7,360 nt of DNA, from the NCBI GenBank assembly GCA_945901665.1, contig CAMDLJ010000124.1, forward strand, positions 1 through 7,360. Reading direction: 5' to 3'. The position numbers and the translations under genes are program-made. Each line of letters starts with the position of its first letter. Positions within the stretch are counted from its first letter, which is position 1. Shown here piece by piece: positions 1 through 5,854 of the stretch. The notes beneath the pieces were generated by a model. The model made no database searches and was not told where the DNA came from. It was given only the letters and a program-made list of their open reading frames with translations. The DNA is from Bordetella parapertussis. GTDB lineage: Bacteria > Pseudomonadota > Gammaproteobacteria > Burkholderiales > Burkholderiaceae.

Positions 1-1213
1 GCAAGGTGTACTGCACCACGTCGGTGTTGGCTTCCATGAAGGCGGCTTCGCAGTACGCCAAATAAAACTGCCAAATGCGCACAAAGCGCTCGTCAAAGCC
101 CAGCGCCAGCACCTGGGGTTTGACCTGCATGAAGCGCTCGCGCCACAAATGCAAGGTGTGGGCATAGTCCAAACCAAAAGCAAACTCGTCGACCACGCGC
201 AGGCCCGCGGCTTGCGCCTGCTGGCGAAACGCGCTGGGCGAAGGCAGACAACCGCCGGGGAAGATGTATTGCTGGATGAAGTCGGTGCCGCGCACATAGC
301 GATCAAAGTAGCTGTCGGCGATCACAATGCTTTGGATGCAGGCGCGGCCGCCGGGCTTGAGCAAACGCGTCACCGTTTCAAAGTAGGTGGGCCAATACGC
401 CTGACCCACGGCTTCGATCATCTCGATGGAGCAAATGGCATCGAAGGGTGCATCGTTGATGTCGCGGTAGTCTTGCAAGCGAAACTGCGCCTGAGCACTC
501 AGGCCCTGATCGCCCAGGCGCTTTTGCGCATGCGCGAGTTGCTGCTCGCTGAGCGTCACACCGGTGAAGTCCACGCCCCATTCGCGGGCGGCCATTTCGG
601 CCAGCGCCCCCCAGCCGCAGCCGATTTCGAGCAAGCGTTGGTTGTGTCCCGGTGTGAGGTTGACCATGCGCAAGGCGCGACGCACTTTGGCGTCTTGCGC
701 TTGGTCCATGGGCAGCATGGGGTTGCCATCGAACCAGGCCGATGAGTAGTTCATGGTCGGGTCCAGCCACAGGCTGTAAAAAGCGTTGCCCAGGTCGTAA
801 TGGGCATGGATATTTTTGCGGCTGTTGCTGCGGGTGTTGCGGTTGAGCCAATGGCGCAGCCGGTGCGCCAACTGGCCCCACCAGTGGCCGTAAATCACGT
901 CTTCCAGCGCGTTGCGGTTGGCGATGAACACACGCAGCAAGGCGCACAAATCGGGGGTTTCCCATTCGCCCGCAATGAACGACTCGGCAAAACCAATGTC
1001 GCCGCTGCGCATGGCGGCGGCAAACATCCCCCAGTCGTGCACCACCAAGCTGGCGCTGGGCTGTTCGCCCTGGCCGTACACCGATTCGCTGCCATCGGGC
1101 AAGCGCAGGTGCAATCGGCCATGCTGGAGTTTTTGCAGCAGGGGTAAAACCCGGCGTGCGGCCAGGGGCATGTCGGTGGGCAGGCGGTGCTGCGGCGCAG
1201 TGGATGTGTTCAT
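1..1213 (-). CDS. cfa: Cyclopropane-fatty-acid-synthase-family SAM methyltransferase, 3' end cut by window edge
   Basis: The frame is open from ATG at 1213 to the left edge: 404 residues, no stop reached. It ends in QFYLAYCEAAFMEANTDVV (382-400), close to the usual family C-terminus, so only a few residues are missing. The family transfers a methyl or methylene group from S-adenosylmethionine to the double bond of an unsaturated phospholipid acyl chain at the membrane. Seen: the CFA box RKNIHAHYDLGNAFYSLWLD (132-151), SAM loop LLEIGCGWGALAE (194-206), EMIEAVG (264-270) and YIFPGGCLPS (316-325). By my alignment to E. coli Cfa, E239 and Y317 are kept (E267, Y350), but C139 is Ser158 and H266 is Gln294. 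These changes typify the 'EMIEAVG' branch, which includes plant cyclopropane synthases and actinobacterial 10-methyl-type enzymes. The product may therefore be a cyclopropane, a methyl-branched chain or a furan precursor. It starts 14 bases after the DUF1365 stop, without a clear Shine-Dalgarno, so it is probably translated from the same mRNA. The family is certain; the product is not. Confidence 0.93.
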   Translation of the reverse strand, partial: MNTSTAPQHRLPTDMPLAARRVLPLLQKLQHGRLHLRLPDGSESVYGQGEQPSASLVVHDWGMFAAAMRSGDIGFAESFIAGEWETPDLCALLRVFIANRNALEDVIYGHWWGQLAHRLRHWLNRNTRSNSRKNIHAHYDLGNAFYSLWLDPTMNYSSAWFDGNPMLPMDQAQDAKVRRALRMVNLTPGHNQRLLEIGCGWGALAEMAAREWGVDFTGVTLSEQQLAHAQKRLGDQGLSAQAQFRLQDYRDINDAPFDAICSIEMIEAVGQAYWPTYFETVTRLLKPGGRACIQSIVIADSYFDRYVRGTDFIQQYIFPGGCLPSPSAFRQQAQAAGLRVVDEFAFGLDYAHTLHLWRERFMQVKPQVLALGFDERFVRIWQFYLAYCEAAFMEANTDVVQYTL

Positions 1214-1227
1214 CGGTTCAAGTCAAA

Positions 1228-2022
1228 TCAGCGGGTCACAAAATGAGAGGGGCGGTGCGGTTTGGGAACATAGGGAATGCGCTGCCACCACAGCTTCAGG
1301 GCTTGCCAATGGATGCGGGCGATCACGCCCCAGGTCATCAACGGGAATTGCCAAATCGCGCGCCGAAGGCTGTGGGCGCTCACCGGCACCAAATCCCCGC
1401 TGACGCTGGTTTGCAGCAACGGGCCTTGGGCATCGTCGTGGTCAATGCGCACCACGGTGCGCTCGCCGTCAGCGCGTTGGGTGCGCATGAAGCGAAAGCG
1501 GTAAATGCCTTCGATGTGGCAAAAGGGGGACACATGGAACACCTTGGACGCGGTTTGCTCCACCCCCCATTGCGGCGTGGGCAACAAATAGCAATGGCGT
1601 TCGCCAAAGGTGTTGTTGACCTCCACCACGATGGCGCGCAGGCTGTGGTCGTTGCGGTGGCAATACCAAAAGCTCACCGGTTTGAAGGCATAGCCCAACA
1701 CCCGTGGGTAGCAGTGCAGCCAAACCTCGCCATGGGCGTCGTCGATGCCCTCGCGCGCCAGCAACTCCAGCAGCCAGGCCAATGACCCGCCCTCAGCGGC
1801 GCTGCGACCATCGCCATGATCGGTGTCGTGAAAGCTCAGCGCGGCGCGCCGGTTCAGCGCCAAAGCCCCGCCGCCATGGGCTAGCAGGTGGCGCATGGGC
1901 AGCATCAAAAAATAAGTGGGGTAGGCAAAGGCATGGGCTTGGGGCTTCAAGCGCGCATGGCGCACCTGGCCAAACCCAAGCATGGGGCCGACCGCAGCGG
2001 GGGGCGTCCAAGCCAGTTTCAT
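1228..2022 (-). CDS. DUF1365 family protein
   Basis: 264 residues. The start ATG at 2022 overlaps the upstream flavoprotein stop as ATGA, so the two are probably translationally coupled. Family signatures in order: GFGQVRHARLKP (16-27), YPTYFLMLPM (34-43), YPRVLGYAFKPVSFWYC (105-121), EVNNTFGERHCYLLP (134-148), KVFHVSPFCHIEG (160-172) and a C-terminal HWQALKLWWQRIPYVPKP (238-255). This is a full-length DUF1365 protein (PF07103). There is no signal peptide and no strong membrane helix. The biochemical role of the family is not settled. It almost always sits between an FAD amine-oxidase-like gene and a CFA-type methyltransferase, as here, so a role in modifying membrane acyl chains is inferred from context only. 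GGTGGGG a few bases before the start is at best a weak ribosome site; coupling to the upstream gene better explains initiation. Confidence 0.92.
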   Translation of the reverse strand: MKLAWTPPAAVGPMLGFGQVRHARLKPQAHAFAYPTYFLMLPMRHLLAHGGGALALNRRAALSFHDTDHGDGRSAAEGGSLAWLLELLAREGIDDAHGEVWLHCYPRVLGYAFKPVSFWYCHRNDHSLRAIVVEVNNTFGERHCYLLPTPQWGVEQTASKVFHVSPFCHIEGIYRFRFMRTQRADGERTVVRIDHDDAQGPLLQTSVSGDLVPVSAHSLRRAIWQFPLMTWGVIARIHWQALKLWWQRIPYVPKPHRPSHFVTR

Positions 2023-3326
2023 GGCCCCACCCGGCTCACACCCGGCGCTGCCCGGCTCAAGATGCCGCGCGCAGCCGCTTGACCGGCGCGCAGGCCGTCT
2101 TCATGAAAACCATAGCCCAGCCAGGCACCGGCATACCAAGTGTGTTGCTGACCTTGCAAGGCCGCCATGTGGCGCTGCGCCTCGATGGCGGCCAGGTCAA
2201 ACACCGGGTGGTCGTAGGCGTAGCGGCCCAGCACGCAGGCCGGGTCGATCTCGCGCAGCGGGTTGAGCGAGACGATCACCGGCTGATCAAATGGCAGCGG
2301 TTGCAATTGGTTGATCCAGTAGTGCAAACACACCTGTTGCTGTTCGCGCTGGGGGCCGGCGCTGCGCTCATAGTTCCAGGCCGCCCAGGCCAGTTTTCGC
2401 TGGGGCATCACTGAGGCGTCGGTGTGCAAAACGGCTTCGTTGGGCTGGCTGCGGATGGCTGCCAAGGTGGTGGCTTCTTCTAAGCTGGGCTGGGCCAGCA
2501 AGGCCAGGGCTTGGTCGGCATGGCAGGCCAGAATCACGTGGTCAAACGTTTCGGGGCCGGCGTCGGTGAACACCCGCACGCCTTGGGGGCTGCGCTCAAT
2601 GCGCCGCACCGGGGTGTGCAAACGCTTGTCGTCGATGCGCTCGGTGATGCGCGCCACATACTGCCTTGCACCGCCGCGCACGGTGTGCCAGCGCGGTCGG
2701 TTGTTGACCTGGATGAGGCCATGGTTGTGGCAAAAGCGGATCAAGGTGGCCACCGGAAAGCGCAGCATTTGATCGGTCGGGCAGCTCCAGATGCAGCCCA
2801 ACATGGGCAGCAAATACCAGTCTCGAAAAACCGTGCCAAACTGGTGGGCAGCCAAAAAATCTTCCAAAGGCTGCTGCAACTGGGCGTCTTGCCCTTGCTC
2901 GGCCAGGCTGCTGGCCAGGGTGTTGAAGCGCAGCACATCGCGCAGCATGGCCCAAAAGCGCGGGCGCAGCAGGTTGCTGCGCTGGGCAAACACGGTGTTC
3001 AGGTTGGCCCCATTCCACTCCAGGCCTGAGCGGCCGTCGGGGCGCGGCACTTGCACCGAAAACGACATGTCCGAGGCCGCGCTGGTCACGCCCAATTCGG
3101 CCAGCAAGGCGATCAATCCTGGGTAGGTGCGCTCATTGAAGACCAAAAAACCGGTGTCCACCCCATGTGTGGTGGGTTGGCCGGCGCTGGGCAAGGTCAC
3201 GTCCACCGTGTGGGTGTGGCCGCCAAAGTAGTCACCCGCCTCGAACAGGCTGAGCTGGGCTTGGCCATGCAGGGCGTGGGCCGCACTCAAGCCGGCAATG
3301 CCAGAACCAACGATCGCAACTTTCAT
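2019..3326 (-). CDS. FAD-dependent amine-oxidase-like oxidoreductase (COG2907 type)
   Basis: 435 residues, starting at ATG 3326. The N-terminus MKVAIVGSGIAGLSAAHAL is a Rossmann dinucleotide fold with GxGxxG at 7-12. The acidic ribose ligand is E29, followed by the second FAD motif GDYFGGHTHTV (31-41) and the substrate-side motif VDTGFLVFNERTYPGLIALL (56-75). Near the C-terminus WYAGAWLGYGFHEDGLRAG closes the FAD site. This is the flavin-containing amine oxidase/NAD(P)-binding family. It has no signal peptide, so it is probably cytoplasmic or at the inner face of the membrane. In the conserved cassette it partners a CFA-type methyltransferase and is thought to oxidise or reduce (desaturate) acyl chains of phospholipids; plant cyclopropane synthases carry a related FAD domain fused to the methyltransferase. 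It follows the peroxidase gene after 69 bases and overlaps DUF1365 by 4. No Shine-Dalgarno is visible. The exact reaction is unknown. Confidence 0.9.
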   Translation of the reverse strand: MKVAIVGSGIAGLSAAHALHGQAQLSLFEAGDYFGGHTHTVDVTLPSAGQPTTHGVDTGFLVFNERTYPGLIALLAELGVTSAASDMSFSVQVPRPDGRSGLEWNGANLNTVFAQRSNLLRPRFWAMLRDVLRFNTLASSLAEQGQDAQLQQPLEDFLAAHQFGTVFRDWYLLPMLGCIWSCPTDQMLRFPVATLIRFCHNHGLIQVNNRPRWHTVRGGARQYVARITERIDDKRLHTPVRRIERSPQGVRVFTDAGPETFDHVILACHADQALALLAQPSLEEATTLAAIRSQPNEAVLHTDASVMPQRKLAWAAWNYERSAGPQREQQQVCLHYWINQLQPLPFDQPVIVSLNPLREIDPACVLGRYAYDHPVFDLAAIEAQRHMAALQGQQHTWYAGAWLGYGFHEDGLRAGQAAARGILSRAAPGVSRVGP

Positions 3327-3366
3327 GGGGTGTGTGCACCAACAAGGGCAGGGGGCTGAAGAGGCC

Positions 3367-3388
3367 CGCCAATGTGGGTATTTTGGCG
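3367..3388 (-). other. Hairpin in the gpx-flavoprotein gap
   Basis: CGCCAA (3367-3372) and TTGGCG (3383-3388) form a perfect 6-base-pair stem with a 10-base loop, just after the peroxidase stop. No U-tract follows on the minus strand (GGGCCTC comes next), so it is not a standard terminator. It could be an mRNA processing or stability element, or chance. The only promoter-like match here is CTGACA (3394-3399) with a poor -10 (CACATT, 3371-3376), so an internal promoter for the flavoprotein gene is possible but weak. Confidence 0.25.
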
Positions 3389-3395
3389 AAAAGTG

Positions 3396-4043
3396 TCAGG
3401 GCAGCTTGACATTGAGCTGCTTTTCCACTTCGGCAACAAAGTTTTTGTCCTGGGGGCCGGTCATGCTGTTGAAGGCCACGGCATGGGTGCCGTCGCGGGC
3501 GATCACATATTTATAGAAGTTCCAACGCGGGCGGGTGCCGGTGAGCTCGCTCAATTGCTTGAACAAGGGCACCGCCTGGGCGCCGGTGACGCTGGTTTTG
3601 CTGAACATGGGGAACTTCACCCCAAAGGTGTTTTCGCAAAAGTCGGCGATCTTTTGGTTCGACTCGGGCTCTTGAGAAAAGTCGTTGGACGGAAAGCCCA
3701 GCACCACCAATCCACGCCCTTTGTAGCGCGCGTGCAAATCTTCCAAACCTTTGTATTGCGGTGTGAAACCGCAAAAACTGGCGGTGTTGACGACCACCAC
3801 CACTTGGCCGGCGTACTGGCACAGGGATTGGGGCTTTTCGTCTTGCAGCCGATCGTGGGTGTGGCGCAGCAGGCGCGGGCAGGTGGCGTTGGGGCTGGCC
3901 TGGGCGCTGGGGACAACGGCGGGGCTAGGGGTTTGGGCCAAAGCGGGTTGCAACCACACCGCCACGGTTGCGGCGCACAGCAACAGGGCCAAGGCAGCCC
4001 GGGCCAGGGGGCGCGTTGCGGGCATGGGTCGGAGCAGGTTCAT
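3396..4043 (-). CDS. gpx: Exported Cys-type glutathione peroxidase family protein
   Basis: 215 residues. The family reduces hydrogen peroxide and lipid hydroperoxides using glutathione or thioredoxin-like thiols. An N-terminal arginine-containing segment and a hydrophobic stretch (about 15-31), ending in LQPALA|QT, look like a Sec signal peptide cleaved after residue 36. This predicts a periplasmic enzyme. The mature domain carries the peroxidatic motif VNTASFCGFTPQYKGLEDLH with Cys91 (codon TGC, so not selenocysteine), GFPSNDFSQEP with Gln124, and RWNFYKY with Trp174 and Asn175, so all four catalytic-tetrad positions are present. The resolving Cys of plant/yeast-type FPCNQF is Ser119 here. 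Cys55, Cys75 and Cys136 are the other mature-region cysteines. It is the first gene of the minus-strand run, 173 bases from the divergent MerR regulator. No clear ribosome site precedes ATG 4043; Met7 is an alternative start that would also leave the signal peptide intact. Confidence 0.92.
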   Translation of the reverse strand: MNLLRPMPATRPLARAALALLLCAATVAVWLQPALAQTPSPAVVPSAQASPNATCPRLLRHTHDRLQDEKPQSLCQYAGQVVVVVNTASFCGFTPQYKGLEDLHARYKGRGLVVLGFPSNDFSQEPESNQKIADFCENTFGVKFPMFSKTSVTGAQAVPLFKQLSELTGTRPRWNFYKYVIARDGTHAVAFNSMTGPQDKNFVAEVEKQLNVKLP

Positions 4044-4106
4044 GGCGGGGTCCAGTGGGGAGAGGAGGAGAATGGGGGCTTGCGGGCGCTGCAGCCTGTT
4101 CAGGCC

Positions 4107-4125
4107 AATCAGTCTAGACTTGATT
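4107..4125. promoter_or_regulatory. Candidate operator dyad 1 (core GTCTAGAC)
   Basis: AGTCTAGACT (4111-4120) is a perfect 10-base palindrome. Allowing one unpaired T at 4120, the symmetry extends to AATCA...TGATT. It shares the core GTCTAG with the second dyad at 4165-4179 and overlaps one candidate -35 box (TTGATT, 4120-4125). Its position beside a MerR/B12 regulator suggests an autoregulatory site. Operator function is inferred. Confidence 0.4.
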
Positions 4126-4164
4126 TTTGGCCCCAGTTGGGGGATGATGCACCAAACTGGTTTG

Positions 4165-4179
4165 ATTGTCTAGGACAAT
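4165..4179. promoter_or_regulatory. Candidate operator dyad 2 (ATTGTC-TAG-GACAAT)
   Basis: A perfect inverted repeat with 6-base arms around TAG, 38 bases upstream of the regulator start. It overlaps the TTGATT (4162-4167) candidate -35 box and the spacer behind it, where a MerR-type or CarH-type repressor would block polymerase. GTCTAG is shared with dyad 1, 56 bases away. It is the best operator candidate in the window. Assignment to the adjacent regulator is an inference. Confidence 0.45.
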
Positions 4180-4202
4180 TGGGCCATTACAAGGCCACCC
4201 AC

Positions 4203-4207
4203 AAGGA
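4203..4207 (+). promoter_or_regulatory. Ribosome binding site of the LitR-type regulator
   Basis: AAGGA sits 9 bases before ATG 4217. It decides the start: the in-frame alternatives at 4166 and 4250 lack such a site, and a start at 4166 would fall inside the candidate operator. Confidence 0.6.
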
Positions 4208-4216
4208 CATTGCTGC

Positions 4217-5182
4217 ATGAACTTTCGCGCCCAACATGAGCCCTTGACCATGTCCATCGCCGGTGTGGAGCGCGATACCGGCCTGGCCAAAGACACCTTG
4301 CGCGTGTGGGAGCGACGCTACGGTTTTCCGCAGCCTGGGCGCGATGCCTTTGGCGAGCGTGCCTACACCTTGTCCGATGTGGAAAAGCTGCGCGTCATCA
4401 AAAGACTGCTCGACCAGGGCCACCGCCCCGGGCGCATCGTGGCTTTGCCCATTGAGGAGTTGCAACGCTTGAGCCAGGGCATGTCGGGTGAGCGCGTCCA
4501 CTGGGTGGCCCAAACGGACGAGGGCGAGGCCGAGGTCGATTTGCGCGACTTCATGCAAATGATCAAAGAGCACCGGGCCGAGGATTTGCGCCGGGCCTTC
4601 AGCCAAGCGGCCATCACCCTGGGGCTGACGCGGTTTGTCACCGAAGTGGTGGCCCCTTTGAATGTGATGGTGGGTGAAGCCTGGTTGCGCGGCGCGCTCG
4701 AGGTGTTTGAGGAGCACCTCTACACCGAGTCGGTCACCACCGTCATCCGCCATGCCATTGGCAGCGTGCCCGAACAAGGCCAACACAGCACCCCCAAGGT
4801 GTTGCTCACCACCTTTCCCCAAGAGTCGCATGCGGTGGGCTTGTTGATGGCCCAAAGCATCATGGCCATTGAGGGCTGCCGCTGCGTGTCCTTGGGAATT
4901 CAAACCCCGTTGCGCGACATTGTGTTGGCGGCCAAAGCCCACCAAGTGGATGTGGTGGCGCTCAGTTGCAGCATGAGCATGAACCCCAACCAAGTGGTGG
5001 ATGGTTTGCAAGAGTTGCGCAGCATGTTGCCCGAACACATGGTGATTTGGGCCGGTGGCAGCTCACCCGCTTTGCGCCGGCGCGAAATCCCTGGCATGGT
5101 CCCCTTGACCCAACTCGGCGACATCGCGCAAGAAGTGCGCAAATGGCGCGCCGCCCATGTACCCAAAGCCACCCAGCGTTAA
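4217..5182 (+). CDS. litR: LitR/CarH-like MerR-family regulator with cobalamin-binding (photosensory) domain
   Basis: 321 residues. An N-terminal MerR winged helix-turn-helix spans about 12-82 (MSIAGVERDTGLAKDTLRVW, then ERRYGFPQP and the wing RDAFGERAYTLSDVEKLRV). A helical B12-cap domain follows at about 105-190, then a Rossmann-type cobalamin-binding domain at about 193-310. The cap shows W156-x9-E166-H167, the signature by which CarH/LitR holds adenosylcobalamin on its upper face. ESHAVG (203-208) gives the ExHxxG lower-ligand motif with His205, followed by SLGIQTP (225-231) and WAGG (278-281). In studied relatives, dark AdoCbl-bound protein oligomerises and represses; light breaks the Co-C bond and releases DNA. 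It is divergent from gpx and the fatty-acid cassette, which are its likely targets together with its own promoter. The C-terminus lacks the metal-binding cysteines of MerR/CueR. Function in light sensing is inferred from these motifs; domain assignment is secure. Confidence 0.9.
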   Translation: MNFRAQHEPLTMSIAGVERDTGLAKDTLRVWERRYGFPQPGRDAFGERAYTLSDVEKLRVIKRLLDQGHRPGRIVALPIEELQRLSQGMSGERVHWVAQTDEGEAEVDLRDFMQMIKEHRAEDLRRAFSQAAITLGLTRFVTEVVAPLNVMVGEAWLRGALEVFEEHLYTESVTTVIRHAIGSVPEQGQHSTPKVLLTTFPQESHAVGLLMAQSIMAIEGCRCVSLGIQTPLRDIVLAAKAHQVDVVALSCSMSMNPNQVVDGLQELRSMLPEHMVIWAGGSSPALRRREIPGMVPLTQLGDIAQEVRKWRAAHVPKATQR

Positions 5183-5216
5183 TCCAAGTCGCACCAGTCT
5201 TCCCAGAGCCAACGTT

Positions 5217-5245
5217 GGTTGCTCACCAGCGCAAGGTGCGCAACC
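5217..5245 (+). terminator. Strong hairpin downstream of the LitR-type gene, without U-tract
   Basis: GGTTGCTCACC (5217-5227) pairs with GGTGCGCAACC (5235-5245) over 11 positions with one mismatch, around a 7-base loop (AGCGCAA); T5216/A5246 adds one more pair. It starts 35 bases after the regulator stop. What follows is ATGTGGCATC, not a run of T, so it is not a classic Rho-independent terminator. It may mark or protect the mRNA 3' end. The overlapping palindrome CCAACGTTGG (5209-5218) may be incidental. Confidence 0.35.
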
Positions 5246-5349
5246 ATGTGGCATCTTCGCTTTGACACCATGCAGCGTTTAGGCGGTCAAGCGCCACCGG
5301 CCTGACAATGCTTTCGCCACGAGTGGTGCAAACATTGGCAGCGCATCCC

Positions 5350-5355
5350 TAGAAT
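5350..5355 (+). promoter_or_regulatory. -10 box of rfaE2, leaderless placement
   Basis: TAGAAT matches five of six positions of the sigma-70 -10 consensus and ends 7 bases before the rfaE2 ATG (5363). Transcription would then begin at or beside the start codon. The best -35 at standard spacing is poor (TGCAAA, 5327-5332). The gene also lacks a Shine-Dalgarno, which fits a leaderless mRNA. Confidence 0.5.
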
Positions 5356-5362
5356 CGCGCCC

Positions 5363-5854
5363 ATGGATGAACCCGATTTTTTGACCAAATGCGTGGCCCC
5401 GGACCAGGCTGCCTCTGCGGTGCAGGTCTTGCGCGTGCGCGGGCCGGTGGTCTTCACCAATGGGGTGTTCGATGTGCTGCACCGGGGCCATGTGACGTAT
5501 TTGGCCCAAGCCCGCAGCTTGGGCGCCAGCTTGGTGGTGGCCCTCAACACCGACGCCTCGGCGCGGCGCTTGGGCAAAGGCGCTGACCGCCCGTTGAACC
5601 GCGAGGCCGACCGCGTTTGTTTGATCGCCGCGCTGGCCTCGGTGGATTTGGTGACTTGGTTTGATGAAGACACACCGCTGCAACTGATTGAAACCCTGCG
5701 CCCGGATGTGCTGGTCAAGGGGGGGGATTACGACATGGCCACCTTGGCCGAAACCCATGCCATGGCCCGTTGGGGCGGCACGGCCTTGGCCATCCCCTTT
5801 GTGTCGGGTTTTTCCACCACGGCCTTGGTGCAGAAAATTCGCCAAACCCGCTGA
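5363..5854 (+). CDS. rfaE2: D-glycero-beta-D-manno-heptose 1-phosphate adenylyltransferase
   Basis: 163 residues, a stand-alone nucleotidyltransferase of the cytidylyltransferase-like (HxGH) fold. It makes ADP-heptose from heptose 1-phosphate and ATP in the cytoplasm, feeding the lipopolysaccharide inner core. Seen: FTNGVFDVLHRGHVTYLAQA (31-50) with HRGH at 40-43, VALNTDASARRLGK (59-72), RPLNREADR (76-84), PDVLVKGGDY (114-123) and the closing IPFVSGFSTTALVQKIR (144-160), whose STTALVQKI is the ATP-binding second signature. In enterobacteria this domain is the C-terminal half of bifunctional HldE. Here the kinase is absent, as is usual in Burkholderiales, so a separate hldA/rfaE1 must lie elsewhere. 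The short N-terminal extension before residue 20 is ordinary for the stand-alone form. It is a single-gene unit, convergent with glnE. No Shine-Dalgarno precedes the ATG. Confidence 0.95.
   Translation: MDEPDFLTKCVAPDQAASAVQVLRVRGPVVFTNGVFDVLHRGHVTYLAQARSLGASLVVALNTDASARRLGKGADRPLNREADRVCLIAALASVDLVTWFDEDTPLQLIETLRPDVLVKGGDYDMATLAETHAMARWGGTALAIPFVSGFSTTALVQKIRQTR

Follow-up and report, generated by a model that had tools for sequence, protein, structure and literature searches.

A 7,360-nucleotide stretch of contig CAMDLJ010000124.1, deposited as Bordetella parapertussis (hereafter the window), carries a gene for a MerR-B12 protein (4217 to 5182, plus strand; hereafter the regulator) that faces a minus-strand operon made up of a glutathione-peroxidase-like gene (GPx) and three genes of the ufaD-ufaO-ufaM type (hereafter ufa genes). 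We consider it fairly probable, judging from the sequence, that the regulator is a CarH/LitR-kind dark repressor of GPx-ufaD-ufaO-ufaM that is loaded with adenosyl-B12 and relieved by light. The gene content and order, a conserved operator, its position at a promoter, its tie to the regulator and the retention of adenosyl-B12 residues can be read directly from the DNA, and from these we infer DNA binding, repression, B12 loading, a light response and the lipid product. In the dark, the adenosyl-B12-bound regulator would bind a palindrome at 4166 to 4178 and cover the -35 element of the GPx-ufaD-ufaO-ufaM promoter, and it would probably limit its own expression as well. Light would cleave the Co-C bond of adenosyl-B12, upon which the regulator would leave the DNA; peroxidase and furan fatty acids would then be made and would guard the membrane against singlet oxygen and lipid peroxides.

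The proposed operator, TTGTCTAGGACAA (4166 to 4178), is the only exact match to TTGTC-N3-GACAA in the 7,360 bases and is conserved upstream of relatives. From words enriched ahead of the regulator in 79 sequences, TTGTCCWGGACAA can be assembled, and of 80 loci and the window, 81 sequences in all, 73 have TTGTC-N3-GACAA at ≥8/10 in this upstream region. We compared loci from a contig scan and from a sample of 300 Burkholderiales genomes, two positive sets that share some genomes and were not corrected for relatedness; two loci were set aside as too short. A site at ≥9/10 occurs in 62 of 65 divergent loci in the contig-scan set and in 46 of 63 in the genome sample, as well as in 24 of 60 loci not seen as divergent (8/13 and 16/47), many of which are too short to tell. 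The corresponding counts are 0 of 36 for ufa loci whose genomes have no full-length regulator and 82 of 6,327 for control windows (46/63 versus 0/36, Fisher p = 3e-14, uncorrected for relatedness). At ≥8/10, the site is found in 60 of the 63 divergent genome-sample loci versus 4 of the 36 regulator-less ufa loci. These 36 are the loci with a UfaD among 38 fetched; within the regulator-less group, G184 has a match to the DNA-binding domain only, elsewhere in the genome, and in L238 another such match lies far from the operon. Because the conserved operator is absent at ≥9/10 from all 36 loci, the link between regulator and operon, which an earlier note on this DNA had proposed from gene content, gains comparative support.

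The distribution of the site points the same way. Across 131 loci there are 205 strong sites, with 176 upstream of the regulator (within 350 bp), 16 within the regulator gene, 10 close to the starts of GPx, UfaD or FolE2 and 3 elsewhere. In L207, L212 and L227, GPx directly adjoins RfaE2, the regulator is gone and no 9/10 site is left, an arrangement that, as read from these loci, is a natural joint loss of regulator and site. The strong sites inside the regulator gene, which possibly serve as auxiliary sites, lie 240 to 280 or 370 bases downstream (L042, L045, L047, L051 to L054, L060, L064, L066, L067, L069, L078, L118, L124 and L126). In a Rhodocyclus genome (L202, ~1113), an exact operator lies between two genes that, judged by eye, encode a renalase-like flavin adenine dinucleotide (FAD) oxidoreductase and a small membrane protein, a possible second target. 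The laboratory species Rubrivivax gelatinosus (L010) also has the cluster, with ufa genes, an exact operator and Leu at the position equivalent to His132 of the CarH of Thermus (TtCarH). A second palindrome-like site in the window, GTCTAGAC near 4113, was rejected, being absent from L001, the closest relative found. The idea that a single recognition-helix residue sets the operator type was also dropped, as many loci with Leu at this residue have the regulator elsewhere in the cluster and the comparison is confounded.

The palindrome overlaps a predicted promoter of GPx-ufaD-ufaO-ufaM. TAGACA-N17-CATCAT (4172 to 4144, minus strand) is the sole sigma-70-like match in positions 1 to 5400; its predicted -35 TAGACA (4167 to 4172, minus strand) falls within the palindrome and its predicted -10 CATCAT occupies 4144 to 4149 on the same strand. 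Because shuffled sequences give a mean of 0.8 matches, the argument rests on the position of this promoter and not on the count. In five aligned loci, the palindrome is mostly invariant and the -10 partly so. Among 77 promoter-operator pairs (≥9/12), the -35 lies at +6 in 14, at +16 to +18 in 44 and at +28 in 13, which accounts for 71 of the 77, and the +6 class is to some extent inherent, because the palindrome arm itself resembles a -35. Sites also occur in pairs: in 125 distinct upstream regions, 54 pairs lie less than 90 bp apart, 5 of them at 52 to 53 bp, 32 at 62 to 64 bp, 13 at 72 to 74 bp and 4 at other distances (6 duplicates were dropped, and a further distance of 2,960 comes from a locus too short for proper cutting). 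These distances fit 5, 6 and 7 helical turns, with fewer independent spacing events than pairs because related loci share their spacing.

The operon itself very probably consists of furan-fatty-acid synthesis genes (UfaD-UfaO-UfaM) with a peroxidase in front, and the lipid product is predicted. From cis-vaccenate, UfaM, UfaD and UfaO make a methylated furan fatty acid, UfaO carries DUF1365, and the Rhodopseudomonas palustris genes are RPA2571 (UfaD), RPA2570 (UfaO) and RPA2569 (UfaM) (Lemke et al. 2020, PMC7380195). The same three families occur in the window, in one operon and in the order of RPA2571 to RPA2569, and we assign the operon on this comparison of families and gene order; it differs from that of R. 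palustris by the GPx gene in front and by the facing B12 regulator. All four genes are on the minus strand. The glutathione-peroxidase-like protein (3396 to 4043; Pfam GSHPx, 6.8e-31) is probably exported, its N-terminus being judged by eye. It is followed by a UfaD-like FAD oxidoreductase, a putative desaturase (2019 to 3326; Amino_oxidase, 7.7e-19), whose gene overlaps the next by 4 bases; by a UfaO-like DUF1365 protein (1228 to 2022; 1.6e-78), which we propose as a candidate for inserting O2-derived oxygen into the furan ring; and by a UfaM-like S-adenosylmethionine-dependent fatty-acyl methyltransferase of the CMAS/CFA family (2 to 1213; CMAS, 2.2e-84). The open reading frames and Pfam matches thus agree with the divergent layout of the earlier note, namely a MerR-B12 regulator facing a glutathione peroxidase, an FAD oxidoreductase, DUF1365 and a CFA-type methyltransferase. 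Its "fatty-acid remodelling" can be narrowed to furan-fatty-acid synthesis, a name it did not use, and its view that the targets suit defence against photo-oxidation at the membrane is supported, with a CarH/LitR-like regulator facing them.

Regulator and ufa genes also travel together. In the 300 genomes, matches at 1e-12 were found for the regulator in 107 and for UfaO in 144. After partial and weaker rows were dropped (regulator E > ~1e-49, UfaO E > ~1e-37), 96 genomes retained a regulator, 115 a strong UfaO and 77 both; strong UfaO occurs without a full-length regulator in 38. The two genes lie within 12 kb of each other in 67 of the 77 genomes that have both, and the arrangement therefore goes beyond chance. 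Clustering, with one Pfam-checked representative per cluster, placed FolE2 in at least 48 and a photolyase-related gene in at least 16 of the 131 loci; these counts are lower bounds because many loci are short.

We next consider the regulator as a B12 sensor. Its open reading frame spans 4166 to 5182 (plus strand), with ATG 4217 as the likeliest start, and the DNA-binding domain (Pfam MerR_1, 3.6e-12) and both B12-binding domains (B12-binding, 1.3e-11, 44.8 bits against a cut-off of 32.1; B12-binding_2, 7.7e-06) score above the Pfam cut-off. The family profile matches the CarH structure 5c8d nearly end to end (profile positions 8 to 300, 8.8e-39), and the AlphaFold2 model has a mean pLDDT of 91.6. 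The motifs W-x9-EH (W156, E166 and H167) and ExHxxG (H205) can be read from the sequence. A first set of relatives had been chosen partly for the presence of the peptide EVFEEHLY, so that V138, E141 and H142 are fixed in it; because of this bias, we took residue counts from a later sample of 110 relatives, left from 131 listed places once split rows, short matches to the DNA-binding domain and one further row had been excluded. The equivalents of the adenosyl-B12 residues W131, E141, H142 and H177 are retained in 108, 108, 107 and 106 of the 110, and the window has all four. L151, L154, L156, L176 and L180 have lost at least one B12-binding residue and are perhaps B12 independent like CarA. 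From the published light signature GxxW, EH, GxxH and GxxxP (PMC11796333), the window has, by eye, GEAW, EH and GIQTP, with QESH replacing GxxH. An adenosyltransferase is encoded in 29 of 30 hand-picked regulator genomes (of the PduO type in 28 and of the CobA type in 9; G004 has neither). A PADLOC match of the DNA-binding domain to mads_1 (4.1e-05) was read as a general helix-turn-helix match and set aside.

Several observations weigh against the dark-repressor reading. The regulator scores 121.5 bits, under the NCBIfam CarH equivalog cut-off of 400, and its proposed operator is a palindrome, whereas the CarH operator consists of tandem 11-bp repeats (PMC8156234). No site at ≥8/10 is found in 29 of the 47 non-divergent genome-sample loci, and 19 of the 96 regulator genomes have no strong UfaO match. 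The exact pattern TTGTCYWNGACAA occurs genome-wide at 13 places in 6 genomes, of which 6 are at the regulator locus; G006 and G001 have no exact pattern at that locus, the sites there carrying one mismatch. Finally, the equivalent of His132, the upper ligand in light-state TtCarH (PMC10442372), is Leu in the window and is His in none of the relatives sampled (0 of 110 and 0 of 81), and TtCarH H132A is mostly tetrameric in the light, with an earlier report differing (PMC10442372). With His132 missing, the light step may differ from that of CarH, or adenosyl-B12 rather than light may be sensed. In the latter case the regulator would respond to adenosyl-B12 supply (or to corrin redox state), with light mattering little; this account is unlikely, although the loss of His132 in all 110 relatives alongside kept adenosyl-B12-binding residues would suit it, as would the behavior of the H132A mutant. 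Adenosyl-B12 is itself light labile, however, and CtMerR, which has Arg at the His132 position, still monomerizes in light (PMC11796333). Light-damage genes lie nearby, including the photolyase-related gene mentioned above, and the LitR-controlled ufaM cluster of Pseudomonas is light induced (PMC9758184). Because CtMerR monomerizes without this His, its loss is compatible with a photosensor and predicts a different light state. For a light-relieved dark repressor, we predict a light step without bis-histidine ligation, perhaps as in CtMerR, since the light-state ligand of CarH is missing.

It is improbable that the regulator is a CarA-like repressor that works without B12 and is relieved through a partner protein or another stress signal, its B12 residues notwithstanding. 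CarA retains a B12-binding motif yet needs no B12 (PMC8156234), a LOV protein relieves the Pseudomonas LitR (PMC9758184) and a few relatives are without B12 residues, but the near-universal retention of W131, E141, H142 and H177 suggests that B12 binding matters, and no LOV gene was found among the Pfam-scanned window proteins. It is very improbable that the palindrome serves some other transcription factor, or is a mere promoter element, with the regulator acting elsewhere. Such an explanation draws on the facts that binding of the regulator to the palindrome is predicted, that the arm resembles a -35 and that ufa operons occur without the regulator; it sits poorly with the 176 of 205 strong sites in the regulator upstream region, with the 36 of 36 ufa loci that have neither a full-length regulator nor a ≥9/10 site and with the disappearance of the site from L207, L212 and L227, loci with no regulator in the interval from GPx to RfaE2.

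The preferred reading, a B12-dependent dark repressor, can be set against control by ChrR and extracytoplasmic function (ECF) sigma factors. RpoE-ChrR regulons have similar targets, namely ufa genes in Rhodobacter and cfa, phrB and a periplasmic GPx in Shewanella, where RpoE2-ChrR drives them (PMC4336711), but they differ in relying on an ECF sigma and anti-sigma factor and on TGATC-N-CGTA promoters. No such promoter was found in front of the operon, and the sole match in the window (396 to 420) lies inside ufaM. ChrR is above the cut-off in 2 of the 300 genomes, G210 and G175, and in none of the 30 hand-picked regulator genomes, including G006 of the nearest relative; weak matches were seen in 18 of these. 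In G210, where the regulator gave no match at 1e-12, an ECF-sigma-like frame (by eye) followed by ChrR is divergent from ufaD at the regulator's usual place (L224, ~10200 to 11592), and by its gene order this locus has one regulator exchanged for another in the same spot. In G175, ChrR and the B12 regulator coexist on separate contigs. The earlier proposal that a B12 regulator stands in for an ECF sigma factor is thus favored by the rarity of ChrR and by its single occurrence at the regulator's place, while the photoreceptor role of the regulator stays putative.

Within the LitR family, the class III LitR of Burkholderia multivorans is a light-linked protein from the same order as the window and reportedly controls folE2 and cfaB. 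Its C-terminus is said to be without similarity to the functional B12 domain (PMC9758184). CarH and class I LitR (Thermus, Bacillus and Myxococcus) share with the regulator the MerR domain, four-helix bundle, B12 Rossmann domain, W-x9-EH and lower-ligand His, but they target carotenoid genes, and TtCarH has the His132 that the regulator is without. The class II LitR proteins PplR and PmlR of Pseudomonas, acting with a short LOV protein and without B12, place ufaM, phrB, an FAD oxidoreductase, SDR and neighbors under light control (PMC9758184). They are alike in the light control of ufaM, FAD oxidoreductase and SDR genes by a LitR-family protein and differ in the absence of B12, in relief by LOV and in the operator TGTACA-N12-TGTACA. 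Class II proteins have no functional B12 Rossmann domain, whereas the B12-binding domain of the regulator passes its cut-off, and no TGTACA-N12-TGTACA operator was found near the regulator; the window has two matches with 3 mismatches, both coding, against 1.74 expected. CtMerR is a MerR-type cobalamin photoreceptor likewise without a His132 equivalent, but its DNA-binding domain is 25% identical to that of TtCarH and it carries Arg at the His132 position (PMC11796333).

To the right of the regulator are an rfaE2-like gene (plus strand) and part of glnE (minus strand). L001, a Comamonadaceae metagenome-assembled genome, has a regulator with 94% identity and an identical gene order on both sides. 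The methyltransferase frame runs off the left window edge, and its L001 counterpart stops three residues further on. The operon continues in L001 with genes for a chalcone-isomerase-like protein (under the Pfam cut-off), MFS_2, DUF3833, SDR and SnoaL-like proteins. In this region to the left of the window, which can be viewed in L001 alone, no photolyase was seen by eye among listed open reading frames of ≥140 amino acids. A search for Rfam families across the window gave nothing relevant. L014, a metagenome-assembled genome titled Bordetella parapertussis, has the cluster layout of the freshwater Burkholderiales L012 and L016, and its name is doubtful.

Tentatively, these regulators may form a distinct Burkholderiales branch of B12 photoreceptors that leave DNA in light without a bis-histidine switch. 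MerR-like dimers would sit on short palindromes phased with the promoter (-35 at +6, +17 and +28, 11 bp apart), palindrome pairs mostly 53, 63 and 74 bp apart (5, 6 and 7 turns) would look as if a tetramer looped across the promoter, and the main job would be furan fatty acids and not carotenoids, filling the ChrR-sigmaE role in the order. In Pseudomonas, a LitR-family protein is already known to place ufaM under light control without B12 (PMC9758184). What is new is the combination of a B12-type regulator on ufa genes with a palindromic operator and the absence of His132, priority being uncertain. Literature searches on 11-base operator strings gave matches that, among those listed, were all unrelated by title, and searches joining CarH, B12 and light with furan fatty acid gave no furan term among the matches listed, an earlier mention of the cluster in the LitR literature being possible. 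If our reading is correct, three regulator types (ECF sigma-ChrR, LOV-LitR and B12-LitR) act on one membrane-protection gene set, and the regulator is a naturally occurring CarH-like sensor that does without His132. B12 photoreception would then extend from carotenoids to membrane furan lipids, with a concrete operator for testing, and these bacteria may activate the protection of their membranes once light has destroyed vitamin B12.

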